A stretch of DNA of 64,000 bases, taken from Deroplatys truncata. Its lineage: Eukaryota > Arthropoda > Insecta > Mantodea > Mantidae. This document shows positions 5,972 to 63,180 of this stretch, in pieces. The notes below the pieces were generated by a model, which saw nothing but the letters and a program-made list of their open reading frames with translations, was not told where the DNA came from and ran no database searches. The position numbers were made by a program, and so were the translations under genes. Location of the stretch: positions 58,140,364 through 58,204,363 of the forward strand of contig CM060980.1 of assembly GCA_030765065.1 (NCBI GenBank), given 5' to 3'. Every line of letters starts with the position of its first letter. The stretch's first letter is position 1.

Positions 5972-6508
5972 AATGCTGTAAGCGGAAGCGACAATCAAAT
6001 CTTTCCAAAGCCGATCGCTATGTAATGCCTTTGCACTTCGGCTCTCTTCCCATGATCACGAAAAGAAAAAGAAGAAAAACAAACGAATAGCCATTTGCAG
6101 TTGCGATAAAGCATAAATAAAAATAACAAAGAAAATCTCGGAAATGGTTAATGCCAAATTTATTTGACATAAATTGTGTGCTTTAAGAAAAACACTGTTT
6201 TGTCTCTCTCTTACGATTTACCAAGCATACAATAGGCAATGAGAATAAACAGGACTTCAATTCTATTCTCAGAGAATTAAAGATATACATTTCTTGTAGT
6301 ACCAAAATCTTAAACATGTTTTATCAAAATCGTTTGAACCATTCTTGGGAAAATAAGAAATAAGGCAAAATTTTCCATGTAAAGGATAATTTTGGGGTAG
6401 GAGATTTTCTTGGAAGATCCTGAAATTAAATAGCAAGTTTAATATCGATATCGACTTATTGGGTAGAATTCAATTACCTTCTCTAGGTACGTGGTAGAGA
6501 AAGTAAAA
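5972..6508 (+). repeat. Fam-A copy 1 (5' part missing)
   Basis: It shares with the other copies the blocks ATCTCGGAAATGGTTAATGC, CCATGTAAAGGATAA and the end GGTAGAGAAAGTAAAA. The 5' third and the CA-rich tract are missing. It belongs to the older, more diverged subgroup. Confidence 0.7.
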
Positions 6509-6550
6509 AGTAAATCAACAACGCTTTTTGACCAAAACAATTTTAAAAAA

Positions 6551-7416
6551 TCTGATGTGATATAGCCACATTAGTTTCTATACCCTCTGTTGTTTATTAG
6601 TGGGTATACAAACTATTCTTACTAAATGTTATTTTTCCATCTATTACATTTTAGATGGATTTTAATCCAAACAAACCTTTGCTGAAATAGCTATGTGACA
6701 CATTTCGTTATAAATATAAACGGAACAGCGATGTTTAAGAACTGGACGCTATATGCTGGCTTTAAAATTCCATACTGTTTCCATGCAATCGAGAGAAACA
6801 ACTGAATGCTGACAGGACTTTTAAGAGAGTAACCAAGAAATGAACAATTCGAAACCTAAATAACCGATACCTCACAAATGGATTTTGCCACAAAAAACTT
6901 ATTTGAAAGAAACTGTGTGTTTTTTTAAAGAGATCTACATTTTTTGTGCAGTACGTTTTCGTCTATCACTTAAGGTTTACCAGTTATACAAGATTACACA
7001 AAATTCCTTCAGAATGAAAAGGACTTCACAGCTATTCCCAGAAAATTCAAGTTATACATTTCATTTGCCATTAAATATCTTTCAAATATAGTATTTTAAT
7101 CAAAATCATTAGAGCCATTTTTGGAATTAAAACAATTCGAAAAATGTTTAATGTAAAGAGGATTTGAAGTTGGGGGATTTTCTTGAAAGTTTTCTGTCGC
7201 ATCTTTGGAAGATACTGAACCTAAATACCAAGTTTGGTACTTATCCAACTTTTCGTTTTTGAGTTATACTGTTCACACACACGGACCCTTTTATAAAAAT
7301 GCTTTTTTTGGTACTCTGGAACCCCAAAACATGTATTTCCAGTGAAATCGCAGTATGAATTTTTGGGCGGAATGCAATACTCTCATTCTGCTATGTACGT
7401 GGTAAAGAAAGTAAAA
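6551..7416 (+). repeat. Fam-A copy 2 (near full length, old)
   Basis: It starts with TCTGATGTGATATAG and ends with GTAAAGAAAGTAAAA. Internal blocks include TTCCATGCAATCG, GGTTTACCAGTTATACAAG and GTTATACTGTTCACACACAC. It lies head to tail with copies 1 and 3. Confidence 0.8.
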
Positions 7417-7430
7417 CAAAACAAAAAAAA

Positions 7431-8240
7431 ATTGATGTAGTACACTCACATACTTTCTCTATCATCTATTGTTTATTACTGGATACACAAACTAATCTTA
7501 CTAAGTCTTATTTTTCCATCTACTTCATTTTAATCCAAATAAACATGTGCAGAAATAGCTACATTACACATTTTTTTATAGATACAAAGGGAAGGGATAT
7601 TCAAATGTTTAAGATCTGGGCGCTATATGCTAGCCTTAAAATTCCATGCTGTTTCCATGCAATCGCGATAAACAATTGAATGTTGGCAGGACTTTAAAAC
7701 AATGACCACGTAATCAAAAATTCGAATCATTGATAACGATACCTCAGAAATGGCTTATGCCACAAAACGTTATTTGACATAATTTGTGCGTTTTAAAGAG
7801 ATCTACAATTTTTGTGTGGCACGTTTTCGTCTATGACTTAACCTTTAGCAGTTAGACAAGGTTATATATAATTTCTTCTGAATGAAGAGCCCTTCATAGG
7901 CTATTTCCAGACAACTCAATATATACATTTTATTTGTCATTTAAATATCCTTAATATATCGTATTTTAATAAAAAACGTAAGAACCAATTTTTAGAAAAT
8001 AAAAAATTTCAAAAAAATGTTCCCATGTAAAGGATAGTTTGGTATGGGGGATTTTATTGAAAATCTTCGTGTCGCATATCTGGAAGGTACTGAACCTAAA
8101 CACTAAGTTTGGTGTTTATCCGACTTTTCGTTTTTGAGTTATGCTGTTCACACACACAGACCTTTTTCTAAAAAAAACTTTTTTTTGGATTCGGAGCCTT
8201 AAAACATGTATATCGGTATCGAATTTTTGGGTGGAATACA
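7431..8240 (+). repeat. Fam-A copy 3 (3' tip missing)
   Basis: It starts near TTGATGTAGTACACTCACAT and runs in register with copy 2 up to GAATTTTTGGGTGGAATACA, where similarity stops before the usual 3' end. It is the third member of the head-to-tail trio. Confidence 0.78.
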
Positions 8241-9008
8241 AGTAAATGTTTGCAAAGCTTCGATGCTTCATAATATAATAGAAATCAACTACTATAAAAA
8301 TGAACATATCTCCATTATTTCTTTAGCCTTCCTATAAAACAAATATAGATTAATATTCCACAAATGAGTGTCGACCTTCCTGAAAACTCTATAGCTTTTC
8401 TTGCCACAGATATCAATGATTAATTGATGCAAGTGCAGTTCAACGGAAAGGAATCGACCAGACCTACACAACTCTAATTGCAGGTGCATCTCCCTGGTGA
8501 TTTAGTGAACAGGGAATCGTCACACTGTCTGAACACTTCTCTTGTTCCAAGAAAAGAAGAGTGGAATGTACACAGACAAAGAGAGAAGTAAAATGTATCG
8601 AGATAGCAAATCTTGTATAAAGTGTTACGATAATAAATTATATTGCGTACCGGTGCGCGAGCATCCGGAGAGGGCGCTGAACTCTTCCGATGTTCATCAC
8701 GGTGAGAAGTCGGAACTACCCACTCGCGAAAACAATGGGCAAACTCGGTCGTCAAACCTTTCGTTTAACAGGTTGCCGCAATTAGGATCCACCACACTCA
8801 CTATGGCAGCCAAACAGAAACGCAAAAAACAGTTTCGATCAAAAACAATCTCCCGAGTAATGGCTAACTCCCATAGACATTATTTTTAATGAAAAGTTAA
8901 CCATTCCTATTAACAATCTAATTCAAAGAGGTTGGACTTGGGCAAACCCATAAAAGGAGTATAAAATCTTAAGCGTATAAGAATCACTGATCTTTTAACA
9001 AATATGCT
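8241..9008. other. Unassigned spacer between Fam-A copies
   Basis: The more GC-rich part (about 8470-8830) gives overlapping open frames on both strands. None shows a known motif, and both-strand openness argues against coding. Confidence 0.4.
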
Positions 9009-9838
9009 TATTACTTTCTCTGCTACGTATAGTAAGTAGGGGAAGTATCGTATTCCACCCAAAAATTCGATACCGAGATTTCACCGGAAATATATGTTTT
9101 GAGGTCCTCTGAATTCAAAACAAGCATTTTTGGAAACATGTCCGTGTATGTGTGTGTGTGTGTGTGTCTGTGAACAGCATAACTCAGAAACGAACAGTCG
9201 GATAAACACCAAATTTGGTGTTTAGGTTCAGTATCTTCCAGAGATGCGACCCGAAGGTTTTCAAGAAAATCTCCCCACCCCAGATTACCCTTTACATGGA
9301 ATATTTTTCGAAAATTTTAATTTTCTCAAAAATGGCTCTAACGATTTTGATTAAAATATCATATGTTTAAGATATTCTCATGACAAATGAAATGTATATC
9401 TCGAATTTTCTGGGAATGTCTCCAAAAGTATTCTTCATTGTGAAACGTCTTTTTTTTACTACATAAATAATGTAGATCGCGTTAAAATACACAATTTATG
9501 TCATATACATTTTTTTTGTTGGGTGAACCATTTTCGAGATATTGCTTGTTATTCCCTTAAATTTTCCAATACTTATACTTTTTTTAAATGGTAATTCGTT
9601 ATTCATTTTTTTTTGTCCTGGTAATGCAAAGAGATTGGAATACTCCACATAGCAACCAGCTCTTAAAATATTTGACTATCGCTTAAAGCCAACGAATTAC
9701 CGTTGCATCTACAAGAAAATTAGCAATAAGATTAACATCTCGATATCTCGATTAACATGAAGCATATGGAGAATAAGCGTTTGTAGGAATAGCTTGTACA
9801 AGAGTAGAGAAAGTCATGTGAGTATAGCACATCAGATA
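9009..9838 (-). repeat. Fam-A copy 4 (full length, younger subgroup)
   Basis: Read on the minus strand it starts at ATCTGATGTGCTATACTCAC and ends with GCAGAGAAAGTAATAAG. A CA-rich tract lies at about 9147-9170. With copy 5 it forms a head-to-head inverted pair. Confidence 0.85.
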
Positions 9839-9896
9839 TTTTTTTTCATTTGTATGCTGATTCAACAAACTATTGTAATCTTAATTAATAAAAAAG

Positions 9897-10708
9897 TCTG
9901 ACGCGTTACATTTACATGAATTTCTCTACCTATTATATTTAGTTTTATATAGCCTTAGAATATTCTCACAAAAGTCTATTTCTCTACCTATTTCATGTTA
10001 ATCGAGATAAACGTTTGTAGAAATGGTTTCAGAAGACATTTCGCTGAAGGTACAAGAAGGGATAGAAGAAACTGAATAGAAGTAAAAGTTTAAAAGCTGG
10101 CCTGGAGTTACATACCTTTTCCATACAATCGCGAGAAGAAACAGAATATCGAAAGAATGACAAAGTACTGAACATTTCGAATCATTAATATCGGATTTCT
10201 CAGAAATAGCTTTGGCAACAAAAAGGTTATTTGAAATAATTTGTATGTTTTACAGAAATGTAGGTACAGATTTTGTGTAGTGTGCTTACGTCTATCGGTT
10301 AACGTTTACCAGTTATACCCAGAAAATTCAATATATACATGTCATTTGCTATTTAACCATCTCAAATATATAATATTTTAATAAAAATCGTTACAGCCAT
10401 TTTTAAGAAAATGAAAATTTCGAAAAATGTTCGAAATAAAGGATAGTTTGTGTGGAGGGATTTTCTTGAAAATCTTTGTGTCACTTCTTTGGAACTTGCT
10501 GAGCTTAAATACCAAGTTTGGTATTCATCGTTTTTAAATTACTTGCGTGTTCACAGACACACAAGCGCGCGCGCGGGCACACACACACAATCATGCAGAT
10601 CGTTTTCTAAAAATTACATATTTTATTCCGGGGTCTCATAATATGCATTTTCGGTGAAATCTTGGTATCGAATGCAATAACTTTTCTACCTGTTAGAGAA
10701 CGTAAAAA
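9897..10708 (+). repeat. Fam-A copy 5 (full length, older subgroup)
   Basis: It begins TCTGACGCGTTACATTTACA and ends GTTAGAGAACGTAAAAAA. The internal simple repeat has drifted to mixed CA and CG (about 10556-10590). It is separated by about 58 bp from the oppositely oriented copy 4. Confidence 0.8.
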
Positions 10709-10740
10709 ATACAAATTTTGAAAAAATCAAGCCTATAACA

Positions 10741-11196
10741 ATGTATATCTTGGAAATGCCCAGTGCTTAAAAAGTTATTTGAAATAAAGAGATCTGCAGT
10801 TGCTGTGCAGTACATTTTTAACTATGTCTTATGGTTTACCAGTTATACAAAATTTCTTCCGAATGGGAGGACTTCAATGCTATTTCCAGAAAATTCAAAA
10901 CACACGTTTTATTTGGTGTGTAAGCAACTTAAACATGTGGTATGTCAACCAAAATCGTTAGAGCCTTTTTTGAAAAATCGAAAATTTTGAAAAATATTTC
11001 ATGTGAAGGGTAGTTTGTGGTAGAGGATTCTTTTGTCGCATCATTTCGTGTCGCATCTTTGGAAGATACAAAACCTAAACATTAATTTTGGTGTTTATCT
11101 GACAATTCGGATGCATTTACGATGGAATCTCAATATCGAATTTTTGGAATACAATACTTCCTCTATGCTGTAAATGCTTAATAGAGAAAATAATAA
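10741..11196 (+). repeat. Fam-A copy 6 (3' half only)
   Basis: It runs from the AAAGAGATCTGCAGT block to TAATAGAGAAAATAATAAAA. The 5' half and the CA tract are absent. Confidence 0.7.
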
Positions 11197-12675: not shown

Positions 12676-13942
12676 GCATAAGTATGAATCTGTTAGTTTT
12701 AATGAACACAATATCTGGTTAAAAGAAAGTATTATGAAAATGGCGTCTCTTGATTTTAGAATTCGCCTTGTCCGCTGATATCACTCATTTTTACTTTTAG
12801 ATATTTTGTTTCTCTGGTACGTAATAAAGTTAATGATACTGGTAATAATGATGAAGATACCAATTAAACTAACGTCTCATGATATTTTGCTTGCTGCTTT
12901 GTAATGCGTTGCAAACTGTCTAGAATATATCAGATTGCAATTAAGTTTAGAATATTTTGTCAGTTATTATTACCATTATAAATATTATTAACTATTTATA
13001 CGTCCATAAATCGTTGCCTCCTTTAAGTATAATCATACTCACCAACCATACATAATTATTATTTTACTGATAGAAAAACTCAGAGATTATGCATGAAAAT
13101 ATGCATATTGACGAAAATTAAATCACCATCGGTGGGCTAGACGGAGAAAGTAATTTATGACAGTTCATACAATGATCATTCTTTATTCCTAAGCTGCCTC
13201 CACTAATTATACTTCGAAAAACAGTTCTCCTTGTGGTTGACAGTTCTCTTGAAATCTCAATGACGACGGAATGAAACCTTTGCCTTTAGGTTCAAAGTTT
13301 AACGTGTTCATAATAATTAAATTATCTTCTTTTCTACATTCCTTCCTTAGTTCATAATTTAGATATATCTACCTGCTGCAAACTACATATGTTGGTCCTT
13401 GAATAGGTTGTCCTATACGTTTCTACACTTCTGTAATTTCCTAAGTAATGTGGCAGGTTTTATAATTTTTTTATTTTATTTCATTCTCTATATACCAAGC
13501 AACCACTGTAACGTTTTAATGGTTCTATTTTATATCCTTAAACTCCTCATAAGAATTTAATTTCATTTACTATAAGTTGGTTTCTTTTTGTCGTAAGCCA
13601 AACTTCACAATTATACCCAACAGTGACATCATTATATCCAAGCATTTTGATGCAGTCCCGCTTCTTACTTTATTTGTTAATGCTGTTCTAATAATGCTAT
13701 TTATGTCATTAAACCCCTTTTATATTCAGTGTTTGATCTGTATTACTTTTGATTTTCAAAGTTACAATTTCCTTATCTTCACTTTTATTCGTAAACATTG
13801 TCATACTGCTTTTCAGTGCTACCTTCTTAAGTTAACATCGAATGTTGAAGTCTGCATGTCGCAAACCGGAGGATCATTCTTAGTAATTGATATTCCATCA
13901 AAAATACGTTTTAGAGATAGATAATCTATTTGAAAAAAATTA
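12676..13942. other. Unassigned AT-rich stretch
   Basis: One open frame of 115 codons (13577-13924) is hydrophobic by composition of the T-rich DNA and has no motif that I recognise. Nothing else is seen. Confidence 0.4.
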
Positions 13943-14990
13943 TGAGCTTCATTCATATGCCTTTCTCTATTCACTCTTATGCAACTATTCCTACAATGCT
14001 TATTATTCTATCCACCTCTTGTTAATACAGATTAACTTTAAATTCATATTTACACATTTAATTACAGGAGTCAGATAGTCAGATTTTTAAACAGCGTATC
14101 GCTATGCGATGTCTTTGAAATCTATGTTTTTTGCACGACCACGAGAAAAAAAGGCAAAACAATAGTGGTTTCCCAGTTGAGAAAAGTATAAATATTAGAA
14201 AATTCAAACCATAACAAGGAACAGCTCGGGACTGGCTATCTCCAAAAAATGTACCTATTTGACATAAACTGTATGCTTTAACGAAAAACTGAAATTGACT
14301 TTTTATTTATGGACGCTCTTTAATACTATGGTTGTTGCTGTCCCGTTCTCGTATATTGGGCGTGAAAGCCGGGAAGTTTGCTCAGAAGCCTCTTTATCAG
14401 GCTTGGGGTTATTTTACGTGTCGTAAATCTAGGACACGGGACCACCGGCTTTACTTCCCTTCCGAAGGATGCCATGCTAAGAATTTTTACGCACGAAAGA
14501 ACCCATCGCCCTCCGCCGGGTTTGAACTCGTGACCTCGGAAACTAGAGGTTAACATGGTACCCTTAGACCACGGAGAACGGCATGCCTTAAAGAGATCTT
14601 CATTTTCTGTGTAGTAGATGTAGTCTACCTCTTACGGTTTACCAATTATACAGACGTCATTTAGAATGAAGAGGGCTTCACAGGATATTCCAGAGAACTC
14701 AAGATATGCGTTTCATTTATCATGCGAATATCTTATACATGGTATTATAATCATTATTAGGACAATTTCTTTAAAAAATTAAAAATAATGAAAATCCCCG
14801 TGTAAAGTGTAGTTTGGGGGTATTTTCTTAAAAATCTATGCGTCGCATCCTTGGAAGATGCTGAACTTAAATACCAAATTTGTTTCTTAAACTAGTTTTC
14901 GTTTCTGTATTACGCTATCCATTCACAGACATGTTGGGTTGAATACAATATTCCCTTTACTCACCGTAAGCACCTAGTAGGGAAAGTAAA
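13943..14990 (+). repeat. Fam-A copy 7, split by a SINE
   Basis: The 5' part starts near CATTCATATGCCTTTCTCTA and the 3' part ends at AGTAGGGAAAGTAAAA. A 300-bp SINE (14282-14582) interrupts it in the block that elsewhere reads TTTTAAAGAGATCTACA. The 3' end touches the left flank of a solo LTR. Confidence 0.8.
14282..14582 (-). mobile_element. tRNA-derived SINE, family S1
   Basis: Read on the minus strand it has an A-box-like GTGGTCTAAGGGTA and a B-box-like GAGTTCAAACCC in the right order and spacing, followed by a body shared with the copy at 54015-54301. Flanks ATGCTTTAA (14273-14281) and ATGCCTTAA (14583-14591) look like a 9-bp target duplication with one difference. It is inserted in Fam-A copy 7. 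It is not a working tRNA gene: the body continues well past the tRNA part. Confidence 0.82.
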
Positions 14991-15433
14991 AGCTGAGGCA
15001 GTATTTTTAACACTTAAATGATTTTAGTCTAATTATATAACATAAAATATAAACAACAGCCCGCCTTAAAGCAATATGTGTATAAATAACATATAAAATG
15101 TATGTAACAGTCATTGTATAATGTTTACATTATTATGTACATGTTTAATAATATTATGTGAATGTATTAGGTAATTTAACAATATAGGATCTGTGATAAT
15201 AATAGGTCAAAAGTTGCTAACAATGAGGTAACGTTGAGGCAATAAGGAATTGGAAAGTTTAGTAATACTACTAGTAATTCTTGGAGCAACAATAATGTAA
15301 TTTTTGACACAGTTTATAAATAGCTAATCAACAATCAGAAACCCTGAAAGTAAAATAAAGGTATTCTATTGGAGTAGGATTAGCCAATCAGAGACTTGAG
15401 ATAGATGAAGTTTGCAAATTCAGGCGGTAGAAA

Positions 15434-15467
15434 TCAGTTGCTGGTAGACAGCGTTCCTAACCGGACG
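15434..15467 (+). promoter_or_regulatory. Inr plus DPE core promoter in LTR copy 1
   Basis: TCAGTTG matches the arthropod initiator. Counting its A (15436) as +1, GGACG falls at +28 to +32, where the downstream promoter element (RGWYV) is expected. A CCAATCA box lies at 15384-15390 and AATAAA at 15573-15578. This divides the repeat into U3, R and U5-like parts. Confidence 0.65.
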
Positions 15468-17270: not shown

Positions 17271-18089
17271 CGACTTTCTCTACTCTTGTACAAACTATTT
17301 TTACAAACGCTTATTCCCCATATGCTTCATGTTAATCGAGATATCGAGATGTTAATTTTATTGCTAATTTTCTTGTAGACGCAAGGGGAATTGTAGGCTT
17401 TAACCTATAGTCAAATATTTTAAGAGTTGGTTGCTATGTCGAGTATTCCATTCTCTTTGCATTACCAGGACAAAAAAAAAAGAATAAGAATTCCCATTTG
17501 AGAAAAAGTATAAGTATTGGCAAATTTAAGGGAATAACAAGCAATATCTCGAAAATGGTTTACTTAACAAAAAATGTATATGACATAAATTGTGTATTTT
17601 AACGCGATCTACATTTTTTGTGTAGTAAAATTTTGTCTGTCTCTTATGGTTTACCAGTTATGCAAAAATCGTTCACAATGAAGAATACTTTTAGAGACAT
17701 TCCCAGAAAATTCAAGATATACATTTTATTTGTCAGGAAAGTATCTTAAATATATGATATTTCAGTCAAAATCGTTAGAACCATTTTTTAGAAAATTAAA
17801 ATGTTCCATGTAAAGGGTAATCTGGAGGTGGGGGATTTTCTTGAAAACCTTCGTGTCGCATCTCTGGAAGATACTGAACCTAAATACCAAGTTTGGTGTT
17901 TATACGATGTTCGTTTCTGAGTTACGCTGTTCACAGACAGACACAGACACACACACGGATATGTTTCCAAAAATGTTTTTTCTGGATTCAGGGGACCTCA
18001 AAACATATATTTCTGGTGAAATCTCAGTATCGAATTTTTGGGTGGAATACGATACTTCCCCTACTCACTATACGTAGTAGAGAAAGTAA
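17271..18089 (+). repeat. Fam-A copy 8 (younger subgroup)
   Basis: It starts directly at CGACTTTCTCTACTC, lacking the 22-bp TCTGATGTG leader seen in other copies, and ends CGTAGTAGAGAAAGTAA. The CAGACACAGACACACACAC tract is at 17933-17958. Confidence 0.88.
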
Positions 18090-18379
18090 TAAATGTGATC
18101 AGAAGAGCTGCTTGCACCTAATGCAAAGTTAAAGAGCCAATGTTATTCAGTTCCTTACGCAGTATTAGAAATATCTTGAAATGTTCTTCCAGCAATCTCA
18201 AGCGAAAAATTAATTCCCGGGGTCAGGCCGTTGCTCGCCAACAATATTGCCAGGAGTATTAGCAAATCGAAACAACTGCGAAATGAATACAGAAGTATTC
18301 AAGCATACTAAAATAATTATTTACAGGCGCAGTAAATTTATATTTGGATCCAAACAGCCTTTAAAAATATATTTAAAAA

Positions 18380-19501
18380 TCTAATGTTACATTCACATGA
18401 ATTTCTCTGCGCACTAGTGTTTATTTTACATAGTTTCTACAAACTATTCGTACGAAAGTTATTTTTCTATCTACATCATTTAGTCGAGATAATCTATTGC
18501 GGAATCAGTTTAATTTCACATTTCGTTGTAGGCAAAAGGGGATAGTGAGTTTATAGTCAGATGTTTAAAAGCATGACACCGCCAGAAAAAACTGAATACA
18601 AACAGCACTATAAAAATGACAGAAGTATTGAAAAATTCAAACCAAGAATAACAGATATCTTGATAGTGGCTAATGCCAACATTTTTTATTTAAAAAAATA
18701 ATAAGCGCCTTAAACTTCTTAAGGTTAAAGGGTCCTTAGTAAAAGTTTTTTGTGGCCTCCCTTTAATTCTGTTATCATATCAGGAGCCTTGACTTATAGA
18801 AACAAGCTAACTCGTTAACTAGGTTTCTTGCTGTTTTTACTAATTTTCATTAGGAAACCCGCTCGTATTCACACTCATATTCATACTTCCAGACCCTGTT
18901 GAGGATAAGGAATAATTATAACGAAAGAAAGATTCCCCTGCCCTAGCTAGGAAACAAATCTGTACCTCTCAAGAAACGTTACTTTAACCAAATTCTGTAT
19001 ATTAAAGAGATCTATATTTTTTGCGCAATACAGTTTTCTCTGTCACTTATGGTTTACACGTTACACCAAATTATGTATACAAAATTCCTTCAGAATGAAG
19101 AGGATTTTGCAGACTAATTCTAGAAAATTCCAGATATTCGCCTTATTTCTCATTAAATATCCTAAATGTATAGTATTTTAAGCAAAGGCGTCAGAGCCTT
19201 TTTTTAAAAATAAAAAATATCTAAAATGTTACCATGTAAAAGGTACTTTCGGGTGTAGGGATTTTCTTAAAATCTTCGTGTCACATCTTTGGAATATACC
19301 TAACTTAAATACCAAGTTTGGTCCAAGTTTCGTATTAATTCGACATTTCCTTTAAGAGTTCTGCGGTCCACACACACAATAAAAATTCTCTTTTAGATTA
19401 AGGAGGGCTCAAAATATCTGTTTCCATGATATCTCGATTTCAATTTTTGGGTGGAATACACCTTTCTCTGACTTACTATAGGTAATTGGTAGATAAAGTA
19501 A
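18380..19501 (+). repeat. Fam-A copy 9 (older, with an insertion)
   Basis: It starts TCTAATGTTACATTCACATG and ends TTGGTAGATAAAGTAA. About 275 bp of foreign sequence splits it in the ATTAAAGAGATCTA region. Confidence 0.75.
18712..18995. mobile_element. Unclassified insertion inside Fam-A copy 9
   Basis: Fam-A similarity stops near CGCCTTAAAC and resumes near ACCAAATTCTGTATATTAAA. The inserted piece begins near GGTTAAAGGGTCC and ends near ACTTTAACC, giving a short inverted match (GGTTAAAG / CTTTAACC). I cannot place it in a family. Confidence 0.45.
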
Positions 19502-20079
19502 GTATTCAGTCATTGAACAAGTCCTAAACACAGAGTAGAGTTTCTTTGGACGTCAATCTTCAACTACTTGCATTCGTATTCATTAAATACACAATTGTGC
19601 AGTAAAGCCACTGGTGTATTTATAGAGATGTCTTGAGTACCTCCACTAAAAATGGTGGAGTTGACGTGAAGAAATTAAGTACCCTTAATTGCTTATATGC
19701 TTATTACTGACATTTCCCCAGCCAAACCTTTGAAACCTTTGTGTAATTATAGCGGGAGACGAACACTGCCAAGACAAATAAAACTTCTGTGTTAATGTTC
19801 TACAGACAGTGCATCTGGTAACCTCGATTAACTCAACCAGATTATTAATAAAACTGGATCATATAGCCAAGTTATAGGTTATTCTAGCGAACGCCTGCGA
19901 AATCTACAAGAATAAAGTATACGGACAAGATCGAGTATTGTATGGAAAGCGAATACCATTCTTCAGAAGTTACAGAATTTGTTTACTTATTTCCTATAGT
20001 AAAAAACTCTTATATGCGACCACTTCTAGCTATATTTAATGCCAATTGAAAGCACAGAGCAAGCCCCTAAATAAACACC
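19502..20079. other. Unassigned stretch
   Basis: Spacer between Fam-A copies 9 and 10. I see nothing recognisable. Confidence 0.4.
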
Positions 20080-20855
20080 TGATGAGTTGCAATCACATTA
20101 CTTTCTCTACTCACTCTTCTTCAAACTATTCTTACAATAGTTTATTCGTCTACTTCTTGTTAATTGAGACCATTTTATTGCACTTTTACACATTTCGTTA
20201 TAAGTATAAGAAGAAAACAACAGGCTAAAGCGGTAGTCAGTTTTTAAAAGGCGGGTAAGTATGCGATGGCTTTGAAATTCCATGCTTTTTAAGAAACAAC
20301 GAATAGCGACTTACTGCTTTCAAGTATTTGAAAGCTCAAACAAAGAAAAAAGAATACCTAGAAAATGGTTAACACAACAAATACTTTTAACATAAATTGT
20401 ATGATTTAACGAGATCTAGCTACATTTTTCGTGCATCAGACTTGGTCTATCTCTTACCAATTATACAAGTATTCCGATTGTAGTGGACTTCACTGACTAT
20501 CCCAGAAAATTTTAGATATACATCTTATTTGTGATACATATATCTTAAACATATGATATTCAAAATCGTTAAGAGCCGGTTTTGGAAAAAAAAGGTAATT
20601 TGGGGTGAGGGGGATTTTGTTGAACTTCCGCGTGTCACATTCCTGGATGATTCTGAATTAAATATCAATTTTGGTGTTTATTTGATGTTTGTTTTTAGTT
20701 ATGCTGTTCACACACAAACCGTTTTTAATAATCCTCTTTTGTATTTAAGGGAAACGCAAAATATATATTTCCGGATAAATCTCGGTATCGAATTGTTGGC
20801 TGGAATGCAATGCTTTCTCTACTTACTATAGGTAAGCAGTAGAGAAAATAAAAAT
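20080..20855 (+). repeat. Fam-A copy 10 (older subgroup)
   Basis: It starts at GATGAGTTGCAATCACATTA and ends GCAGTAGAGAAAATAAAA. The CA tract is reduced to CACACACA at about 20710-20718. Confidence 0.78.
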
Positions 20856-22640
20856 ACAATGTGTAACGATCATGACACAGATGTCTTCTTTGCATAAATA
20901 TTACAAATGATCTTCTATGCACTTAATCATGGTAATGCTTGCCTACATATAATTTCAAATTGGCAACACCAACTTAGTTGTATGTAAGAAGCGGAAACAA
21001 CATTCAAATGTTTATATCACAAGTGCATTTCTACTAGTAACACATCCCAGAATTCTAATAAATTTTAGCACACAAACAGGAATATTTCGGAAATGACTAA
21101 TGCTATGCAAAAATCTTATACGACAGAAATTCTGTGTTTTATACTCTATACTCCCTTCTTAATAAGCTGTAGTCTATTCCCCATGCTTCCCCAATTATAG
21201 GTATTGGTTTTAATTACAATGAAGTGTATTCCATAGGCTAATAAAGAAGCAGAGAGACTTAATGTAAGCCAAGTTGTGCTCGGGGAGGGGGGAGCTGTGA
21301 TGGGAGATGTTACTGACATGCTGAAAGAATATGCCCATGAAACTTAGACATATACTTGTAATTATAAATGTTAAAAGAAACGTACATATATAGAAATTTC
21401 TGAAGATTCTTCAGGGTTTTCTTACCAAGCTCAGTATTTCTGCTTAGTTATCCCGAATTATTTTAATTATGTCTGAGGGATACGTATAAAAGATAATAAT
21501 GGAGTAAGAGGGTAGGGGAAGGCTAGCATCTGATAGAATGTTCACCCTCCACAGGATTTTGACGCACCATTAGGCAAGAGCTTCCGATGCACCACTCACG
21601 TGGATTCCAGTGGCCAACAAGGCGGAAGATTGAATACGTTGGTTCGATTTTACAATCGGGAAGTTCCCCTCTCACATTCCAGGCGCCCGATCAAGTGAGG
21701 TGACTTGCGGCCTCACCGCATCCCACAGTTTGCTTGTTCTGGTTAACGTCTCCTTGGCGTCTGAGGAGAAACAGATCGCCAATTAGCGGCATCTCTACCA
21801 ACCGTTAACTCACCAGAAGTTGCCAGAACTGAGAGTGGAGACCAGAACATTAATGGACAGAAGAGGAAAGAGAGATGCGGAGCGATAACATTTGTGCCAT
21901 AAATGGCTTTAAAACAATACCTCAAACGCATCATTGTAAAAGGCTGTGCTATTATTTAAGTAGATTCCATGACTTTTTTAAACTATTATCATGTAGGATG
22001 CTAAAAGAAAGGAATAAAATGAACTTGTAAAGAAAAATAAATTATTGAGAAAGGAACCCTTTCAACTTTTATAAAGAAGGATGCTACCCTGAAAGAAAAA
22101 GTGTGATACACGCAGTTGATACGACAATAAACGCAGATGTTAAGAGTATTAGGAAAAAAGAAAGAGAGAAAGAAATTGAGACGAGGCGAATCTTTAAGCA
22201 AAGTGACATTTTAATGGTTACTAAAGAAGTATCGGTAATCAGTACAATTTCAGATAAAATCTTCTACAAAAATGAACTGGATATTGTACTCCATTGGCAT
22301 ATAAATAAACAATCATCATTTTCAATAACATCTTCACTCCATGGACAAGTGCCAGTTCCGCCCTCAAGCCATCGTTTCCTGCGTCTGCACACACATTTCC
22401 TTTCTGTAGGATTATATTTCATTATTTGTTTTCTGAGTGTTGTGTCAGGTATTCATTCGTGTCCTTTCCACTGATATTTAAATGTAAGGTTTTCAAATAT
22501 CAAATAACAAGTATATAAGTTTACTTATAAATAAGTGTTTGTAAAAGCCCTCCTTTATGAACAATTCTAAAAGCTTGAGATTAACAGCAGCATCCAGTAG
22601 GAGCCGTCCATAGTGAATGTAGAAAGCAGCATGGTAATAT
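20856..22640. other. Unassigned stretch with a degraded Fam-A piece
   Basis: About 21070-21240 resembles the middle of Fam-A (TTTCGGAAATGACTAATGC, CAATGAAGTGTATTC) but is weak. A GC-richer island lies at about 21540-21930. The open frame at 22103-22474 (123 codons) has no recognised motif. Confidence 0.4.
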
Positions 22641-23130: not shown

Positions 23131-24990
23131 GTTAGTATTAGGTAAGGAAGTAACAAAATAACTCAGAGAGGGATATCTTTATTCTCGTTATTTTCGCATA
23201 ATGCGTTTTGACCATTACATCAGAGAATGCCAATAAGATGAAAAAGCACAGCGTTCATTTAATGTTTACACATTCTCTTACTTCGACATAATACGCTTTG
23301 ATGATGGCATCAGAGGGTGACAGTAAGTTAAAGAAACACGTAGTGTTAATTTAGTGTTCACAGATGATCAAACAGGATTGCCTTTGATGACAATAACTTA
23401 CAATGAAGAATATGGCCTCCTTAATGCAGTTTCAATGATTATGCGCTAAAATTAAACCAGTAATTACAGCCCTACATTGCTATATGTGTCTATATTGCAA
23501 TGAAACAAAGAGTGAAATCAGCTGATGCGAAGCTTTCAAAATCAGTATTGGATAAATGGTTAATGTCTTTATAGTATTTTGACACTGTCAATGTCTGTAT
23601 TGTACCTTACGTCATCGATATAATACATTATTTGGTAACGGCAATATCCAAAGTTGATCTTTATAAATAATGAAGAAATGAAAGATGTTGACTAAAATAT
23701 TCCACGAAACTGGAACTTATTCACAGTTGCATTTTTCCTTTGCTACCCCGTTCAGTTTTGATAGAGAACAAGATAATATTAAGTCATATTTACAGATTTC
23801 TCCAAAATGTTTTAATATGTGGATAGATTACTTAGTTCGCGCTTTATGAAAGTTGCAGGCAAACAAAGGACAAACAGAGGAAATTACTAGAGGGAAACAA
23901 GAGTGCAAACATGAAAACGTTGCGAAGTAAGGAAGAGGAGTAGGGAAAAGCAGCCTATGGGAGGTTAACAGAATCGTATTAGCGTTTTGCCAGCTTTATC
24001 TCGGTTGCAAATGCTCGACGCTGTCTAAAATTTCTACTTTGCTACTGCTGTTACAGACTCCATTGTTGTTCTTCCACCCCTCTTTAGCTTTTCCTTGTCT
24101 CTCCATGCGCTATTTCACCGCCAAGGCCAACAGCCATTCTCTTCTCTGCAATCAAATTGCGAACATATTTATTTGACGCTCCAACATCTTCGTCGACGTC
24201 CCCGGGACCTCCGCCGCGGTAGCTCCGGAAGCAGGTTTCATTAATTGAAGATCGCATTGCCGGAAAATTACTACCTTACCCCCACCAGCTGCAGCATCCA
24301 CCGACCAACCGAACCAAGAGGTAGTAAGGTTTCTGCCAGTCGTTTCGAGATGCTGCAACAAGGAGATTCCTAGCATCTCTCTTGCCGTTTTCCGGAGCAG
24401 ACACTAATGAAAACTCCAGTTCCCATACTTCTCCTTCTGCTTCCTTATGGAGCCCTTCCGGCATTCGACGCTTTACCCACGTGACTTGTTTATTTTAATT
24501 ACATCTATGGGGTTTCGGAGAAGACAAAGAACAAACTGAAAAGGTAATGATCCTTTTTTTTATTTTTTGCTGCCATAATAAGGGGACAGAAAAGACAAAT
24601 ACGATATACAGAATGATTCTGGTAATATACCTACTAGGCTTCCTTAAGGCAATGCATGTATATTTTTATGCATTTATAGGAATTAAAGAATCTACAGTTT
24701 TCTTACGATTTCTTTGACTTTTATATATATATGTATAGATATGAACATATTTATATTCTCAGAGCATCAAACATATAGTACGTACAAAAATTTAATGAGC
24801 TATGTCAAACAGTCATTAAGATATTAATTCTTCAATCATAATTAATCATTTTTATATGGCAATGCGAAATACTCCTTGGGCCCTACGATTTATTCTATCG
24901 CTCCCAAAATATTAACTTTAGCTTCGTATACAAACTTAAAGAAATCGTTGTGCAGGCATTTCTTAATTAAATTACTATAAGAGAAAAAAT
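23131..24990. other. Unassigned stretch with a GC-rich island
   Basis: About 23990-24490 is much richer in C and G than its surroundings (CGTCGACGTCCCCGGGACC at about 24191-24209) and holds short open frames on the minus strand. No protein motif is recognised. It could be a regulatory or exonic island of a host gene, or an old repeat. Confidence 0.4.
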
Positions 24991-25806
24991 TCTGATGTGT
25001 TACACTCACATGACTTTCTCTACTCTTGTACAAACTATTTTTACAAACGCTTATTCTCCATATGCTTCATGTTAATCGAGATATCGAGATGTTAATCTTA
25101 TTGCTAATTTTCTTGTAGATGCAAGGGGAATTGGTAGGCTTTAAGCAATAGTCAAATATTTTAGGAGCTGGTTGCTATGTGGAGTATTCCATTCTCTTTG
25201 CATTGCCAGGACAAGGAAAAATGAATTTCTATTTGAGAAAAAGTATAAAGTATTGGAAAATTTAAGGGAATAACAAGCAATATCTCGAAAATGGTTCACT
25301 CAACAAAAAAGAATGTATATGACATAAATTGTGTATTTTAACGCGATCTACATTTTTGTGTAGTAAACGTTTGTCTTATCTCTTATGGTTTACCAGTTAT
25401 GCAAAAGTCGTTCACAATGAAGAATACTTTTGGAGACATTCCCAGAAAGTTCAAGATATACATTTTATTTCTCATGAAACTATCTTAAGTGTATGATATT
25501 TTAATCAAAATCGTTAGAGCCATTTTTGAGAAAATTAAAATTTTCGAAAAATGTTCCATGTAAAGGGTAATCTGGGGTGAGGGAATTTTCTTGAAAACCT
25601 TCGTGTCGCATCTCTGGAAGATACAGAACCTAAATACCCAGTTTGGTGTTTATCCGACTGTTCGTTTCTGATTATGCCGTTTCCAAAATCCTTTTTTTGG
25701 ATTCAGGAGGCCTCAAAACATGCATTTCCGGTGAAATCTAGGTATCGAATTTTTGAGTGGAATGCAATACTTCCCCTACTTACTATACGTAGTAGAGAAA
25801 GTAAAA
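24991..25806 (+). repeat. Fam-A copy 11 (full length, younger subgroup)
   Basis: It begins TCTGATGTGTTACACTCACA and ends CGTAGTAGAGAAAGTAAAAA, with all internal blocks of the young subgroup. It lacks most of the CA tract, joining GATTATGCCGT directly to TTCCAAAA. Confidence 0.9.
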
Positions 25807-35575: not shown

Positions 35576-35587
35576 CAATAGTAAAAA

Positions 35588-43180: not shown

Positions 43181-44090
43181 TTTTTACTTTCTCTACTACG
43201 TATAGTAAGTAGGGGAAGTATTGTATTCCACCCAAAATTTCGATACCGAGATTTCACCGGAAATACATGTTTTGAGACCCCCTGAATCCAAAAAAAGCAT
43301 TTTTGGAAACATGTCCGTGTGTGTCTGTGTGTCTGTCTGTGTGTGTCTGTGAACAGCATAACTCAGAAACGAACAGTCGGATAAACACCAAACTTGGTAT
43401 TTGGGTTCAGTATCTTCCAAGGATGTGGCACGAAGGGTTTGAAGAAAATTCCGCCACCCCAGAGTACCCTTTACATTGAAGATCTTTCGAAAATTTTAAT
43501 TTTCTCAAAAATGGCTCTAACGATTTTGATTAAAATATCATATGTTTAAGATATTTTTACGACAAATAAAATGTATATCTTGAATTTCCTGGGAATGTCT
43601 CCAAAAGTATACTTCATTGTGAACGACTTTTGCATAACAGGTAAACCATAAGAGATAGACAAAATTTTACTACACAAAAAATGTAGATCGCGTTAAAATA
43701 CACAATTTATGTCATATACATTTTTTTTGTTGAGTGAACCATTTTCGAGATATTACTTGTTATTCCCTTAAATTTTTCAATACTTTTCTCAAATGGGAAT
43801 TCGTTATTCATTTTTTTGTCTTCGATATGCAAAGAATATTAATCTTTGGCAAAGCGAATGGTGCTGCACCTAGTAACCAGCTAATAAGAGATATGTATGT
43901 GCTTAAAGCCTACTGTATTTGTATATTGCCCTTGGAAATATATATTCCTCTTACATCTACAAGAAAATTAGCAATAAGATAGAGTCTGCAAATGTTTATC
44001 TCGATTAAGATGAAGCATATGGAGAATAAGCGTTTGTATAAATAGTTTGTATAAGAGTAGAGAAAGTCATGTGAGTGTAACACATCAGAT
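43181..44090 (-). repeat. Fam-A copy 15 (full length, younger subgroup)
   Basis: On the minus strand it begins ATCTGATGTGTTACACTCAC and ends CGTAGTAGAGAAAGTAAAAA. The simple-sequence tract ACACACAGACAGACACACAG is read on the minus strand. It carries a few dozen bases absent from other young copies near 43900-43960. Confidence 0.88.
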
Positions 44091-45117
44091 TTTTTATTAA
44101 ACAATGAAAGAATCAAAGTGTAACGAAACCGGTTTTGGAGACATTCTATCAACAACTTTACTGAGGCAATTTCCCTGTCAGAAAAAAATCTATTAATGGT
44201 ACATTAATGAGAGTTTCAGAACCATTTCCCTTGGTCATTAAAATGGACTAAGGACTGTAATATAATTTTAGAAACAAATTTTATCTTAACCCTCGCCGTA
44301 GTCGTAATTCTCTGGTAATGCGCAATCGCACGCAAAAAGATTAAAACAGATTAAAACCTCCTACGTCATTCGTTTCGAGATTTGAAAATTAATGAGGAGG
44401 ATCTTATCTGGACCAACACGGTTGCAAATCTGAGGTTATTTTCGCTGTTGCACCGGTTGCAGAAGTGCCACGGAGGCGAGGTGAGAAAAGTTACGCAGTG
44501 GGAGAAGAAGGGGAATGGCTTAGAAAGGTTTGAGACAAAGTTGGAGGAAAACGTCTCTTTCTTTATTAGGCGAGGTGATTTCTCGAAAATTAAAATTGCC
44601 CCAGGGTTTATCATTCCCTCTTCCTTCCCCTCCCCTCTCCCCAAACCTTAAATCTTCTTCCCTGGCGAGGCTACGTGTTGGACAACTTATCAAGAAAGAG
44701 TGAGTTACTGCCAGAGTTTTCATTACATGAAGAAGATATAACAAAAATAACGAAAAAATATTGTAGATCTAGAAACCCTCGCGAATCTTGGACTTGTCAC
44801 ACTTCTTATAACATGAACTTCATTGCATTTTCTGGAGAAATGAAAGCTTTTAAGATAACTTTCTGCTGGCAGAGAGGCACGAAGACATCAGATACGTATC
44901 TGTAAAAACTGTTGAAACGCAACCATTTTCACTTATAACATTAATATTTGCATATAAAATATTATTTGTGCAAGACCGTTAATCACTTTATGTTTCTGAA
45001 TACCATTTTCCTCATAATCTATGTTTTTCATAGATTTGATGCTTTGTGTCATAGATACCTATTAAGATGATTTATGACAAATTTTCAGTTTTATACCTTT
45101 AATATACAAATAATTAC
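44091..45117. other. Unassigned stretch
   Basis: About 44370-44690 is less AT-rich and is open on both strands (89 and 92 codons), which speaks against either being a gene. No motif is recognised. Confidence 0.4.
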
Positions 45118-51913: not shown

Positions 51914-51932
51914 TTAAAACAAGTATGTCATA

Positions 51933-52796: not shown

Positions 52797-52800
52797 CATG

Positions 52801-57674: not shown

Positions 57675-58520
57675 TGGTATGTGTTATATTCACATGAGTT
57701 TCTCTACCCACTCTATTTTTATGCAGCTTCTATAAATTACTCCCACGAAAGCTTATTTATCTATCTACTTTATATTAATCAAAAAAAACTTTGTAATAGT
57801 AGTTTAATTTACACACTTCATTGTAGTTACAAGGGAACAGAGAAATCGAATCGTTAGCGAGATGACTAAAACCAGTCGGTATATGCTGGTCTTCCATGAT
57901 ATAGAGAGAAAGAACTTAATAGCGACAGCACTTTAAGAAATTGACAAAGTGTTGAAAAACGCAACCCAATGAGAATAACGGATATCTCGAAAACGGCTAT
58001 TGCCACAGAAAAATATTTGGAAATAAATTGCATGTCTTAAAGTGATCCATATCTTTGTGTAGTAAGTTTTTGTCTATTTGTAATGGTTTACTCGTTATAC
58101 AAAATTATACAAATTTTCTGCCGAATGAAGAGAAATTCACAGAATACTCTCAGAAAATTCAAGATATAAATTTTATTTGACGTGTAAATATCTTAAATAT
58201 ACAAATTTTAATAAAAATCGTTAGAATTCTTTTAAAGAAAATGAAAAATAACAAAATATTTTCCATGTAAAGGGCGGTGTGGAGGGATTTATCCGAAAAT
58301 CTTTGCGTCGCAACTTTGGAAGAGACCGAACTGAAATACCTAGGTTGATGTTTATCGGACTTCTCGTTTTTTAATTATTCTGCTCTCAAACATGGGACTT
58401 TATCTACATTTTTTTTAGGTTCAGGGGCTCTCAAAATATCTCTGTTGAAATCTCGATATCAAAATTTTGGATGGATTACAATACTTCCTTTACTTACTAT
58501 AAGTATGTAGCAAAGAAAGC
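57675..58520 (+). repeat. Fam-A copy 16 (full length, older subgroup)
   Basis: It begins GTATGTGTTATATTCACATG and ends TATGTAGCAAAGAAAGCG. The CA tract is gone, replaced by TCTGCTCTCAAACATGGGAC. Confidence 0.78.
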
Positions 58521-59975: not shown

Positions 59976-60758
59976 TTTTTACATTCTCTACTACGTATAC
60001 TAAGTAGGGGAAGTATTGCATTCCACCCACAAATTCGATGCTGAGAATTCACCGGAAATGCACGTTTTGAAGCCCCTGAATAATAAAAGAAAAAGGATTT
60101 TTAGAAAAATGTCCAAACTGTTTAGGTTCAGTATCTTTCAAAGATGCGACACAATATTTTCAAGAAAATTCCCTCCCCTCAGACTACGCTTTACGTGGAA
60201 CATTTTTCGAAAATTTTGATTTTCCGAAAATGGTTCTAATGATTTTGATTAAAATATCATATATTTAAGATATTTTCATGACAAATAAAATGTATATCTT
60301 GAATTTTTTGGGAATGTGCCCAAAAGTCTTCTTCATCCTGGATGCTTTTGCATAACTGATAAACCGTATGAGATAGACAAAATTGTTCTCCACAAAAAAT
60401 GTAGTGTTCGTTAAAACACACAATTTATGTCACATACTTTTTTGTGGATTGAACCATTTCGGAGATATTCCTTGTTATTTGTTTGAATTTTCCAATACTT
60501 ACTTATACTTTTTCAATAGGAATTCGTTATTCGTTTTCTTATGTCCTGGACATGCAAGGAGAATGAAATGCTCCACATAGCAACCAGCTCTTAAAATATT
60601 TGACTATCGCTTAAACCCTACCATAGTCCCCTTGCATCTACAAGAAAATTAGCAATAAGATTAACTTTTAGATTACCATGAAGTAGATTGAAAATAAGCG
60701 TTTGTTAATAATAGCTTTACAAGAGTAGAGACAGTCGTATGAGTGTAACACATTAGAT
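59976..60758 (-). repeat. Fam-A copy 17 (near full length, younger subgroup)
   Basis: On the minus strand it begins TCTAATGTGTTACACTCATA and ends CGTAGTAGAGAATGTAAAAA. The CA tract and flanking 50 bp are deleted (CAGTTTGGACATTTTTC joins directly). Confidence 0.85.
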
Positions 60759-61130
60759 TTTTCAAAGTTGATTCTACCTTCCAAGCTTGGCCACTGCGAA
60801 AGATAAATTGTCGAAAATAAAAGAGAACAGTTTTAGTACATACAGTAGTGCTGTGCTATTTGAAGTTTGAATGGGTAATATTTTTAGTAATCAATATTCT
60901 TAACACATTTATCATCATCCTTATTAAGTCATATTTGGGGTATAAAATAGTTTTTTCATTCTTTCGTTTCGAAATAGGTGTTTGTGTGAATTATTTGTCG
61001 AAAGTTATTAATTTTATTCCTGAATGTTTTTTTCAGTTAAGTACCCAGGTATTGTTTATCTTTTGGAATATTTAAATTTAGGAATAAATATCTAATACTA
61101 AGGTGGTTGAAATATATCTTGGTCATTGGT
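60759..61130. other. Unassigned AT-rich stretch
   Basis: Nothing recognised. Confidence 0.4.
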
Positions 61131-61490
61131 TTCAATTATCTGCTTCAGGGTTGTAGGATCAGGCGATGGTGTTCGGCGGCTGCTCACGGTGTATGTCCGC
61201 TATGTAAAGGTTTCTTTCCTGGCATTGTTGTGAGACTGCTCAGTTAGGATGGGGTGGGGACCGCCGGGAGGCATGTGGGTGAGCCCGGACTGGTCGGATG
61301 CATCCGATCTGGAAACGTTAGAGAAACACTTCATGCTTGCGTCCGCCATCATTGGGATCTGGTCGCCCTTCGGGTCTCTCCTTCCAAGGGGTTACGGTGG
61401 AAGTGAAAAAGACCCTTGCGGCCTGCTTGCGGTGCTCTGCCCCCATTTCGGGAGCTACTCCCTTTCGTCCGTACCTTTACCTTTTACCTA
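61131..61490 (+). repeat. GC-rich tail repeat (relative of 48.0 kb)
   Basis: It opens TTCAGGGTTGTAGGATCAGG and then CGATGGTGTTCGGCGG, like 48.0 kb, and continues GC-rich with CATCATTGGGATCTGG and CTTCGGGTCTCTCCTTCC. The 90-codon frame in it has no recognised motif. Confidence 0.55.
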
Positions 61491-61719
61491 CAATATTAAT
61501 AATACAAAAGTAGATCAATAACAACACTTTGAGGTTGTTTTTATTATTCCTAACATCTAATTTAGTTATCTTCATTTTTCTGACAAAATAGGTCACATAA
61601 AGAAGAAAACGTTATTCACAGAAAGAGGTGTTCAAAGCAAAAATAGAGAAAACAAACTGGCATATATTTGCAGAGAAAGAAACCACATAGATTGAGCACA
61701 CAGAAGCTGGCATGTTTAA

Positions 61720-62006
61720 CAGTGGTGCCACTTTGTAGGGCAAAACGTCCCCTAAAAATGGGCTAAAGATTATCACTGTACTCCAAAGAGTGTAGAAGTT
61801 ATGATTTTTTCTATGAAGTGCTTCAGAATTCACAAAATTGCAGTAGCAGTATACATATTTTTTAAAAAATATGCTTAAAACATACATATTGTGGTTACAG
61901 TGATAAACCTAATAAAATATAATTAAAGAGGAAATTCAATTCATAAAACCGCAATTAAAACTAACCAAAATGTTATTTTTGACAATTACCGGCATTTAGT
62001 CTCCCC
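61720..62006. mobile_element. Partial second copy of the TTAA-flanked element
   Basis: GCAAAACGTCCCCTAAAAAT, ACTCCAAAGAGTGTAGAAGT and TTAAAGAGGAAATTCAATTC align with 51660-51913. It ends AGTCTCCCC before TTAA (62007-62010). The left end is not found. Confidence 0.6.
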
Positions 62007-62010
62007 TTAA

Positions 62011-62949
62011 TAAGGCATCAGGTATAGGAATACAAAACAATAACACAATCAAACTGCGTCGAAAATATAGTATTCCTCAAAACTATTTCATAAAAATTAT
62101 TGCATCACAACTTTCATCGGTGAGTCTATCGCTGTTGCAGATGTCCTCATTCACAGGTCTGAAGAAACTTCCAACTGGGTAGTAAATTAAGAGAAAAATC
62201 TTTCTTTAGTTCCCTCTTTCTTTCAAACACAAAAAATGAAGTGAGTTGAATGATTGAGCCATCCAGTTTTCTGCACGACTGAGAAAGCTGTTTTAAATGG
62301 GAAGGGCGAAGCCACTACAGTTCGTTTCTTTTAAATCAACTTCTTTTTTTTAAACTTTTCCTTCCTCTTAATAAATTTCAAATTCGCATCACGAACCTCG
62401 GAAATCACTGCTTAAGAGTGCCGAAGATTGCGCATAGAAAACGAATGACCGTAAAGAAACTCGGGGGAAGCAGAGAGGGAAAAAAATCGGGGTGGCCGCA
62501 ATAGGACGAGATTTTAAGAATTCCTTACGCGGTTCTCGATTGAAATGAAGACGAGAAGGCAATCGCGAATGGAAAGATGGATAAGAAGGGGAACCAAGGG
62601 GAACTGAAGTATAAAATTGGAGGGTATTGGCGCGATAAGAACAGGAAGGTTAAACAGACGAAAACTTGAGGAATAATAAAAAAAGAGACACAGATTGTGG
62701 AAGGTAGGAAGTTGGGGGAGAATAAATTTAGCGACGATGGGGGAAAGATCCCCTTTTTACTCCGTCACGTCTGTCAATTTCCTATTGGGTCTTGCCTCAC
62801 AGATATCTTTGCTCCTTTTTTCCCCCAGCATTCCGAAGAAAGGGGACTGCAACAGTAACAGCTGACAATCAGCAGTTTCTAGGTGACCTACTTCCCCATT
62901 TAGGGACGCACTTGCAAACTCCTTAGAATGATGGTATGTTTGCTATCTA
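62011..62949. other. Unassigned stretch
   Basis: About 62400-62760 is purine-rich (many GAAG and GGAA words). No gene or repeat is recognised. Confidence 0.4.
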
Positions 62950-63180
62950 CCATTAGCTAGAGTAGCGGAAATATTGCATTTTACACATAAATCTGATATC
63001 GAGCTTTCGAATACGCGCGCGCGAGTGTACATGTGCACTTGAACAATTCTGCTGAGCGAACATCTTAACTAAAAACCGAAATGTCAGATGTCAAATATTT
63101 TTTACGGATGCAAGGTGAAGATTTTAAGAAAATTCCTTCGAAACAGCAAACCTCTCCTTTCAGCAAACACAGTAGAAATA
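62950..63180 (-). repeat. Degraded Fam-A 3' end
   Basis: GTAGCGGAAATATTGCATTT and TCTGATATCGAGCTTTCGAA follow the order of the Fam-A 3' end, with a CG-rich simple tract where others have CA. Similarity is weak but colinear. Confidence 0.5.

Follow-up and report, generated by a model that had tools for sequence, protein, structure and literature searches.

Fam-A is a dispersed repeat family of about 0.8-0.9 kb in a 64,000-nucleotide stretch of the genome of the mantis Deroplatys truncata (C6:58140364-58204363 of an assembly of 4,289,915,091 bases in 818 contigs), referred to below as the window. We are highly confident that this family is a HINE, that is, a DINE-1-like, non-coding and non-autonomous relative of a Helentron (Helitron2 type) present in the same genome, which has kept the ends of that element and lost its gene. 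The assignment is made because of the anatomy of the family, the existence of an autonomous partner, the ends that the two share, the structure of empty insertion sites, and head-to-tail joins of units across one T-run. The first-pass annotation of the window had presented the superfamily and the mover of Fam-A as unknown; the outcome it had set as a refutation, a match to a described family, was obtained at the level of kind (HINE/DINE-1-like), the superfamily can now be given as Helentron, and an element carrying both Fam-A ends encodes Rep, helicase and endonuclease domains.

The family was delineated by self-comparison of the window and by two profiles, one built from six young copies and the other from six older ones. 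Together, the profiles cover 13,913 of the 64,000 bases (21.7%), on both strands, in line with the fifth of the window estimated previously, and neither profile matched the reversed window or the reversed versions of 14 sample stretches. Grouping the matches of the young-copy profile by hand yields 17 copies or long fragments, the number already reported, and three weak pieces where at least two had been noted; the family had been taken to extend to position 63,180, whereas its last copy stops at about 60,762. Strands of Fam-A features are given in the HINE orientation, 5' to 3', which is opposite to the reading direction adopted earlier: the start and end described for full copies are genuine, and the one called the end corresponds to the 5' terminus of the element. 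In this orientation, an element consists of a T-run, ACTTTCTCTAC as the 5' subterminal inverted repeat (subTIR), a short spacer, GTAGGGGAAGT or variants thereof (the complement of the subTIR, G-T pairs included), in several copies only a GTCT/GTGT microsatellite, the body, GTAGAGAAAGT as the 3' subTIR, CATGTGAGTGTAACACATCAGA and a T-run. The young 25.0-kb copy (24985..25807, minus strand; alignment), which served as the query of the genome search described below, carries, all on the minus strand, the 5' subTIR at 25792..25802, its imperfect complement GTAGGGGAAGT at 25769..25779, the 3' subTIR at 25013..25023, and the 3' palindrome TGTGAGTGTAACACA at 24996..25010, followed by TCAGA and the T-run. 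Two internal landmarks on the same strand were placed in the 35.6-kb copy, namely the T-run in TTATTCA-TTTTT-ATGTCC (35811..35815), which sequence comparison identifies as the position where Helentron copies sit in other Fam-A copies, and the microsatellite (36282..36345; alignment).

Common ends are plain in the alignments of both young and old copies, and the short subterminal inverted repeats described in the first-pass annotation, an 11-bp word near the start that recurs inverted at the end, are well supported: with at most one mismatch, ACTTTCTCTAC occurs 28 times against 1.40 expected (20-fold), and none of 100 shuffles reaches 28. The 11-bp repeats are asymmetric, as one immediately follows its T-run and the other lies about 22 nt before its own. 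In 10 of the 15 window copies compared, at least 10 of the 11 positions of the 5' subTIR pair with the complement, against a random background of 1.1% (20,000 positions); the 57.7-kb copy, whose row begins a few bases too far in, is scored as a miss in this count. At the 3' end, the aligned copies conserve a TGTG..CACA pattern, and a stem is predicted at this palindrome in 7 of 13 copies, with folding energies no better than those of shuffles. The absence of coding capacity noted previously agrees with a Pfam scan of six of the longer frames of Fam-A (75-114 amino acids, two of them running into the flank or a neighboring copy), which gave no match; no longer frame exists within the copies.

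A longer relative sharing these ends, the search for which had been recommended, was found and encodes Rep, helicase and endonuclease domains. A genome search with the Rep domain profile PF14214 returned 291 first-look candidates, 150 of which were scored, giving at least 152 matches; among the matches listed, 18 Rep loci have open frames of 2,108-2,543 amino acids. The Rep motif reads RGSPHEH in 14 of the 44 loci examined, RGLPHAH in 7 and neither in 23, where S is described as marking Helentrons and L as marking Helitrons (PMC4067079). The frame of one copy (copy A, on C5) encodes Herpes_teg_N, a tract of 21-residue repeats, DUF6570, Helitron_like_N and a PIF1 helicase with its 2B domain, and continues for 112 residues past the helicase before it breaks. 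In copy B the same region stays open for 131 residues, with a match to Exo_endo_phos_2 (E-value 2.4e-7, 31.1 bits versus a cut-off of 27.4). The domain set of the Helentron is accordingly a reading from pieces of two copies, and passage from helicase to endonuclease region in a single frame was read in copy A only, the frame breaking there. Ten Helentron copies have a mean identity of 98.65% (97.7-99.9%) across 2,076 bases starting at the Rep domain; their frame has the HINE orientation, and the Helentron pieces scanned showed no DDE transposase. The best-scoring Rep loci, with frames of up to 849 amino acids, were dropped as candidate partners because their seven readable motifs are RGLPHAH and Fam-A DNA is found in only 2 of 20 such loci (L011-L030). 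As to the Helentrons themselves, their open frames vary in length among copies, perhaps due to the 21-residue repeat tract; their N-terminal region with tandem 21-residue repeats (63-bp units) is seen at L041, in a frame of 1093 amino acids, and at L031. Downstream of copy A, a transposase fragment (L057:1951-2505, minus strand) has a weak, below-cut-off match to HTH_Tnp_Tc3_2.

The relationship between the two elements lies in their ends. Fam-A-like DNA upstream of the Helentron frame was first seen when young copies were compared with two 5-kb flanks. In 10 of the 18 listed long-frame copies the 3' end was examined, and all 10 terminate in GTAGAGAAAGTTATGTGAATGTAACACATCAGATTTT, with different flanks beyond; the 5' side, read in six of these, shows ACTTTCTCTACTACGTATAGTAAGTAGGGGAAGT following a T-run in all six, each copy having two such ends. 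In copies A and B, positions 1-701/703 of the young Fam-A consensus align, with identities of 85.7 and 87.4%, to the 5' region that belongs to the Helentron itself, and the last 37-38 bases of the consensus align to the Helentron 3' end at 95%. The Fam-A units that surround the Helentron in the same two copies are 94-97% identical to the young consensus.

The insertion target could be read directly at one site. The young 35.6-kb copy (35587..36474, minus strand) lies within another high-copy repeat, and its joined flanks match across the junction elsewhere in the genome (2,146 first-look candidates, best 40 scored). In 12 of 12 paralogous empty sites of this one insertion, chosen from matches that span the junction, the repeat is uninterrupted and contains a single A/T-run; at the filled site, such a run flanks the copy on both sides. 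The flanks of 15 copies, compared by eye, have no common word beyond the T-runs (18 copies were printed, and the 6.6-, 57.7- and 37.4-kb copies, whose 3' sides were mis-parsed, were left out). Insertion into a T-run by an element that brings one T-run of its own would explain these flanks. Two side observations concern the surroundings of the 35.6-kb copy: at 35410-35560, a SINE-like (short interspersed element) stretch with a tRNA B-box-like motif (GGTTCAAATCCCG) was recognized by eye only, and the DNA just after it belongs to the repeat with the 2,146 candidates. Part of this host repeat also forms long tandem rows at G000:C13:180113403-180114742 and C12:35772184-35773388.

The genomic surroundings of the Helentron copies add a further layer. 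In 7 of the 10 copies, what lies beyond the 3' end is the 3' portion of a Fam-A element starting at the internal T-run, and the junction reads ..TTATTCA-T-run-(A)TGTCCTGG.., a sequence that is uninterrupted in the Fam-A copies of the window. Six copies were read upstream, and in five of them the outer 5' unit is 97.5-99.8% identical, from which it follows that a single nesting event was probably amplified; the outer unit of copy A is 91.7-93.1% identical to the other five. The Fam-A 3' halves, which are less telling than the 5' units, agree at 93.0-97.7% among five copies; the half in copy A agrees with those five at 89.4-94.0%. Within the group with alike 5' units, copies B and C9 end at the inner 3' end, and C10 extends as far as the outer Fam-A 3' end and has other flanks on either side. 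C13 likewise reaches the outer end and then enters another Fam-A 3' half, which would be expected had the composite itself landed in a T-run; C5b is compatible with either reading. Two copies, L065 (C5b) and L067 (C3), run directly into a new 5' end across a single shared T-run, as does copy B on its 5' side. The use of inner and outer 3' ends, together with the head-to-tail joins, would fit a rolling-circle element with a leaky stop, and at most one composite place can be the founding site. We tentatively propose that the main amplifying autonomous unit may be a composite rather than the bare Helentron, with the Helentron seated at the internal T-run of a non-autonomous element derived from it; this composite would move with the outer Fam-A 5' end and stop at either 3' signal, Fam-A serving as landing site, carrier and passenger. 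This proposal is given slightly less than an even chance because the five 3' halves are only 93-98% alike and C5b is ambiguous.

Several observations weigh against the assignment of Fam-A to the HINEs. The stem of the 3' palindrome is only 4-5 bp long, with z-scores of -1.7 to 1.2 for 13 3' ends in DNA folding, and the 5' hairpin is strong in only some of 13 copies (z from -4.5 to 0.7, negative in 12). The endonuclease-region piece of copy A, in which the frame is broken, gave no endonuclease match, and a tblastn search of the window with the Helentron protein pieces (E-value up to 1e-3) matched no stretch of it. About 110 bp of the Fam-A consensus (approximately 704-813) are unmatched in the Helentron pieces read, therefore Fam-A is not a simple internal deletion of copies A or B, and the Helentron copies, being 98.65% alike, are younger than most of the measured Fam-A copies of the window. 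Finally, the extra T-run of the filled site can be read as a 5-bp TTTTT duplication, from which an imported run is indistinguishable at the 35.6-kb site alone. On that reading Fam-A would be a miniature inverted-repeat transposable element (MITE) moved by a cut-and-paste (DDE) transposase, consistent with one T-run in the empty and two in the filled site and with equal runs on both sides in 4 of the 11 copies that have clean T-runs, including five plus five at the 35.6- and 60.0-kb copies. In the remaining 7 copies, however, the T counts are unequal, units joined head to tail have one T-run in common, and the element that shares these ends has coding sequence for Rep, helicase and endonuclease, with no DDE transposase seen in the pieces scanned. 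The subterminal and asymmetric position of the inverted repeats also differs from the terminal inverted repeats of a MITE, and the T-run is the only sequence repeated, which by itself does not exclude a TTTTT duplication. Taken together, a MITE is very improbable.

Even less credible, to the point of near exclusion, is a canonical (Helitron1) non-autonomous Helitron read in the orientation of the first-pass annotation, with a 5' TC after A and a hairpin near the other end. Young copies do begin with TCTGATG after A in that orientation, a hairpin is possible just before their other end, and RGLPHAH loci, 7 of the 44 examined, are present in the genome; yet the aligned copies have no CTRR end, the TC start is absent from several old copies, the insertion target is a T-run, and the partner with the same ends has RGSPHEH and an endonuclease in a frame that runs in the HINE orientation. 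A variant within the HINE assignment has more weight, although we consider it rather unlikely: the Helentron found here may be a cousin, the mover having been another, perhaps extinct, Helentron lineage. This would accommodate the relative youth of the Helentron copies, the unmatched middle piece and the 86-87% identity of the Helentron's own 5' unit to the young consensus, compared with 94-97% for the neighboring Fam-A units of copies A and B, and the ends were checked in 10 of the 18 listed long-frame copies only. Against it stand the nearly identical terminal signals, including the 95% match over the last 37-38 bases, the apparent joint travel of Helentron and Fam-A units as composites, and the existence elsewhere in the genome of Fam-A copies (L006, L010, L004 and L009) with a Kimura two-parameter (K2P) distance of only 0.014-0.03 from the consensus. 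The present Helentron lineage, rather than a vanished relative, is likely to have moved the copies of the window.

For a HINE mobilized by such a Helentron, we infer the following course of events. The Rep/PIF1-helicase/endonuclease protein would nick one strand at the 5' end, marked by the T-run, ACTTTCTCTAC and its complement; the helicase would unwind the DNA, and the strand would be peeled off while synthesis replaces it. The round would end at the 3' signal, consisting of GTAGAGAAAGT, the short palindrome TGTG..CACA and CATCAGATTTT, and the resulting single strand, or possibly a circle, would be joined into a T-run that Rep or the endonuclease had opened by cutting. Fam-A would require only its two ends for this process.

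The copies of the window fall into the two groups that had been described earlier as younger and older, at the places claimed, and the repeated waves suggested then are supported to the extent of at least two age classes. Young divergence was measured for the six copies at 9.0, 17.3, 25.0, 35.6, 43.2 and 60.0 kb: five are at K2P distances of 0.035-0.073 from a 15-copy consensus and the 60.0-kb copy is at 0.157, and six old copies are at 0.13-0.28 from the old-copy consensus. At least two bursts of Fam-A are likely. Besides the 25.0- and 35.6-kb copies, and like the copies that follow, located by profile and alignment unless noted, the young group comprises copies at 9008..9845 (plus strand), 17272..18092 (minus; alignment), 43181..44095 (plus), with an internal microsatellite at 43312-43351, and 59976..60762 (plus), the divergent 60.0-kb copy. 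The 39.7-kb copy (39729..40239, minus) belongs where it had been listed and is truncated (39730-40239), being without its 5' part. The 17.3-kb copy is without the usual tail beyond its 3' subTIR, which alignment shows to be swapped for another palindromic sequence. This tail (about 17233-17271) comprises GGGGAGGTACCTCC and, ahead of a TTTT, a stem of 7 bp (CTCCTAC..GTAGGAG). It may be a foreign 3' terminus, and a search of the window found it nowhere else.

Old copies with both ends present are located at 6551..7417 (minus strand), 20078..20854 (minus), 37350..38176 (plus) and 57675..58520 (minus). The first of these is the middle one of three consecutive copies in the same orientation, the others being a fragment with the HINE 5' end at 5951..6509 (minus) and a copy at 7430..8241 (minus) that has lost its HINE 5' end and lies 12 bases from the preceding one. 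A further old copy at 9897..10708 (minus) is abutted by a fragment in the same orientation at 10704..11196 (minus), and two old copies are interrupted, one at 13942..14992 (minus), split by about 300 bp (14286-14584) that are partly another repeat, and one at 18385..19504 (minus), interrupted at 18678-18984. The three weak pieces, detected by the profiles, are at 15..148 (plus; a 3' terminal part), 21060..21240 (minus) and 38237..38756 (plus). Old copies are arranged head to tail in the same orientation at 6551-8241 and 9897-11196, and the short T-rich spacer between two of them (7417-7430) resembles the joins at the young Helentron copies. A second dispersed repeat of about 0.75-0.97 kb, with 76-80% identity among its occurrences at 14994-15962, 31919-32870 and 51933-52697, has a sharp common end, TGAGGCAGTATTTTT, which at 14994 adjoins the end of an old Fam-A copy with nearly single-base precision. 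A fragmentary Mutator-like transposase gene lies at 45762-47061 on the minus strand, where the 46645-47061 frame matches PF20700 (E-value 1e-19) and the 45762-46289 frame has no Pfam match. Searches of the window with Rfam (at the gathering threshold) and for tRNAs returned nothing, exact patterns of the Fam-A core and ends had no match in viral contigs, nor had the core pattern in a genome-contig collection, and a literature text search with the Fam-A end words matched works whose listed titles deal with other subjects.

Both the HINEs and the Helentrons with a tegument-like domain are known kinds of elements, and the two elements described here are placed among them by features and not by sequence comparison with Repbase or Dfam. 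As described for Drosophila, Metaseiulus and Culex (PMC4067079), DINE-1 and HINE elements resemble Fam-A in being non-coding, in having a microsatellite and a 3' palindrome, in the T-rich target and the strings of T at their borders, and in having a Helentron partner with the same ends. Their subTIRs are 12-15 bp long, compared with 11 bp in Fam-A, whose terminal palindrome is short, and the short inverted repeat beside the 5' subTIR, which Fam-A has, is in that account a feature of DINE-1 and not of the mite HINEs; the likeness is one of features, not a sequence match. Helitron2_Cv of Calliphora vicina (PMC3630058) and Cg_HINE of the oyster (PMC7492417) are likewise reported to have subTIRs of 11-12 bp, a partial inverted repeat near the 5' subTIR and a GTCY-rich or 4-nt microsatellite, as well as a 3' stem-loop, to which the short palindrome of Fam-A may correspond; according to the oyster report, the HINEs of that genome could not be related to an autonomous partner, whereas a partner of Fam-A has been found. 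A further difference is that no central satellite array was seen in Fam-A. A tegument-like (VTD) deubiquitinase domain in Helentrons is not new, as Helentrons of this type, including those of insects, have been described with Rep/helicase and AP endonuclease (PMC9741609), as here; in comparison with that description, copy A also has the tract of 21-residue repeats and DUF6570. Composites have a precedent in FoHeli of Fusarium oxysporum, which has Helitron2-type ends as well and for which self-insertion has been proposed to lead to several 5' termini and one 3' terminus (PMC5148889). In contrast to that account, copies with alike outer 5' units stop here at one 3' end or the other, inner or outer, and a fixed T-run inside Fam-A is where the Helentron lands.

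What is notable about Fam-A is its abundance, along with the composites. A genome search with the 25.0-kb copy gave 7,078 first-look candidates, and the best 40, which were scored, all match, the window's own copy included. In 34 genome windows at round coordinates set before inspection (82,000 bases, 668 of them N), Fam-A accounts for 13,197 bases, or 16.1% (bootstrap 9.0-24.3%); 14 of the 34 have a match, two batches agree (5,892 of 42,000 and 7,305 of 40,000 bases), and the reversed sequences of the 34 had none. Extrapolation would give a total of about 0.4-1.0 Gb of Fam-A in the 4.3-Gb genome. For comparison, the reported values for all Helitrons together are 28% in the house fly genome (PMC6327564) and 17-22% in assemblies of morabine grasshoppers (PMC7754599). 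With a family at about one-sixth of the sampled DNA and a partner whose copies share 98.65% identity on average, this mantis offers a good system for the study of rolling-circle transposition. If the composites are read correctly, bypass of the stop signal could be counted genome-wide, and the genome would preserve, as a natural record, the frequency with which a rolling-circle transposase runs past that signal.

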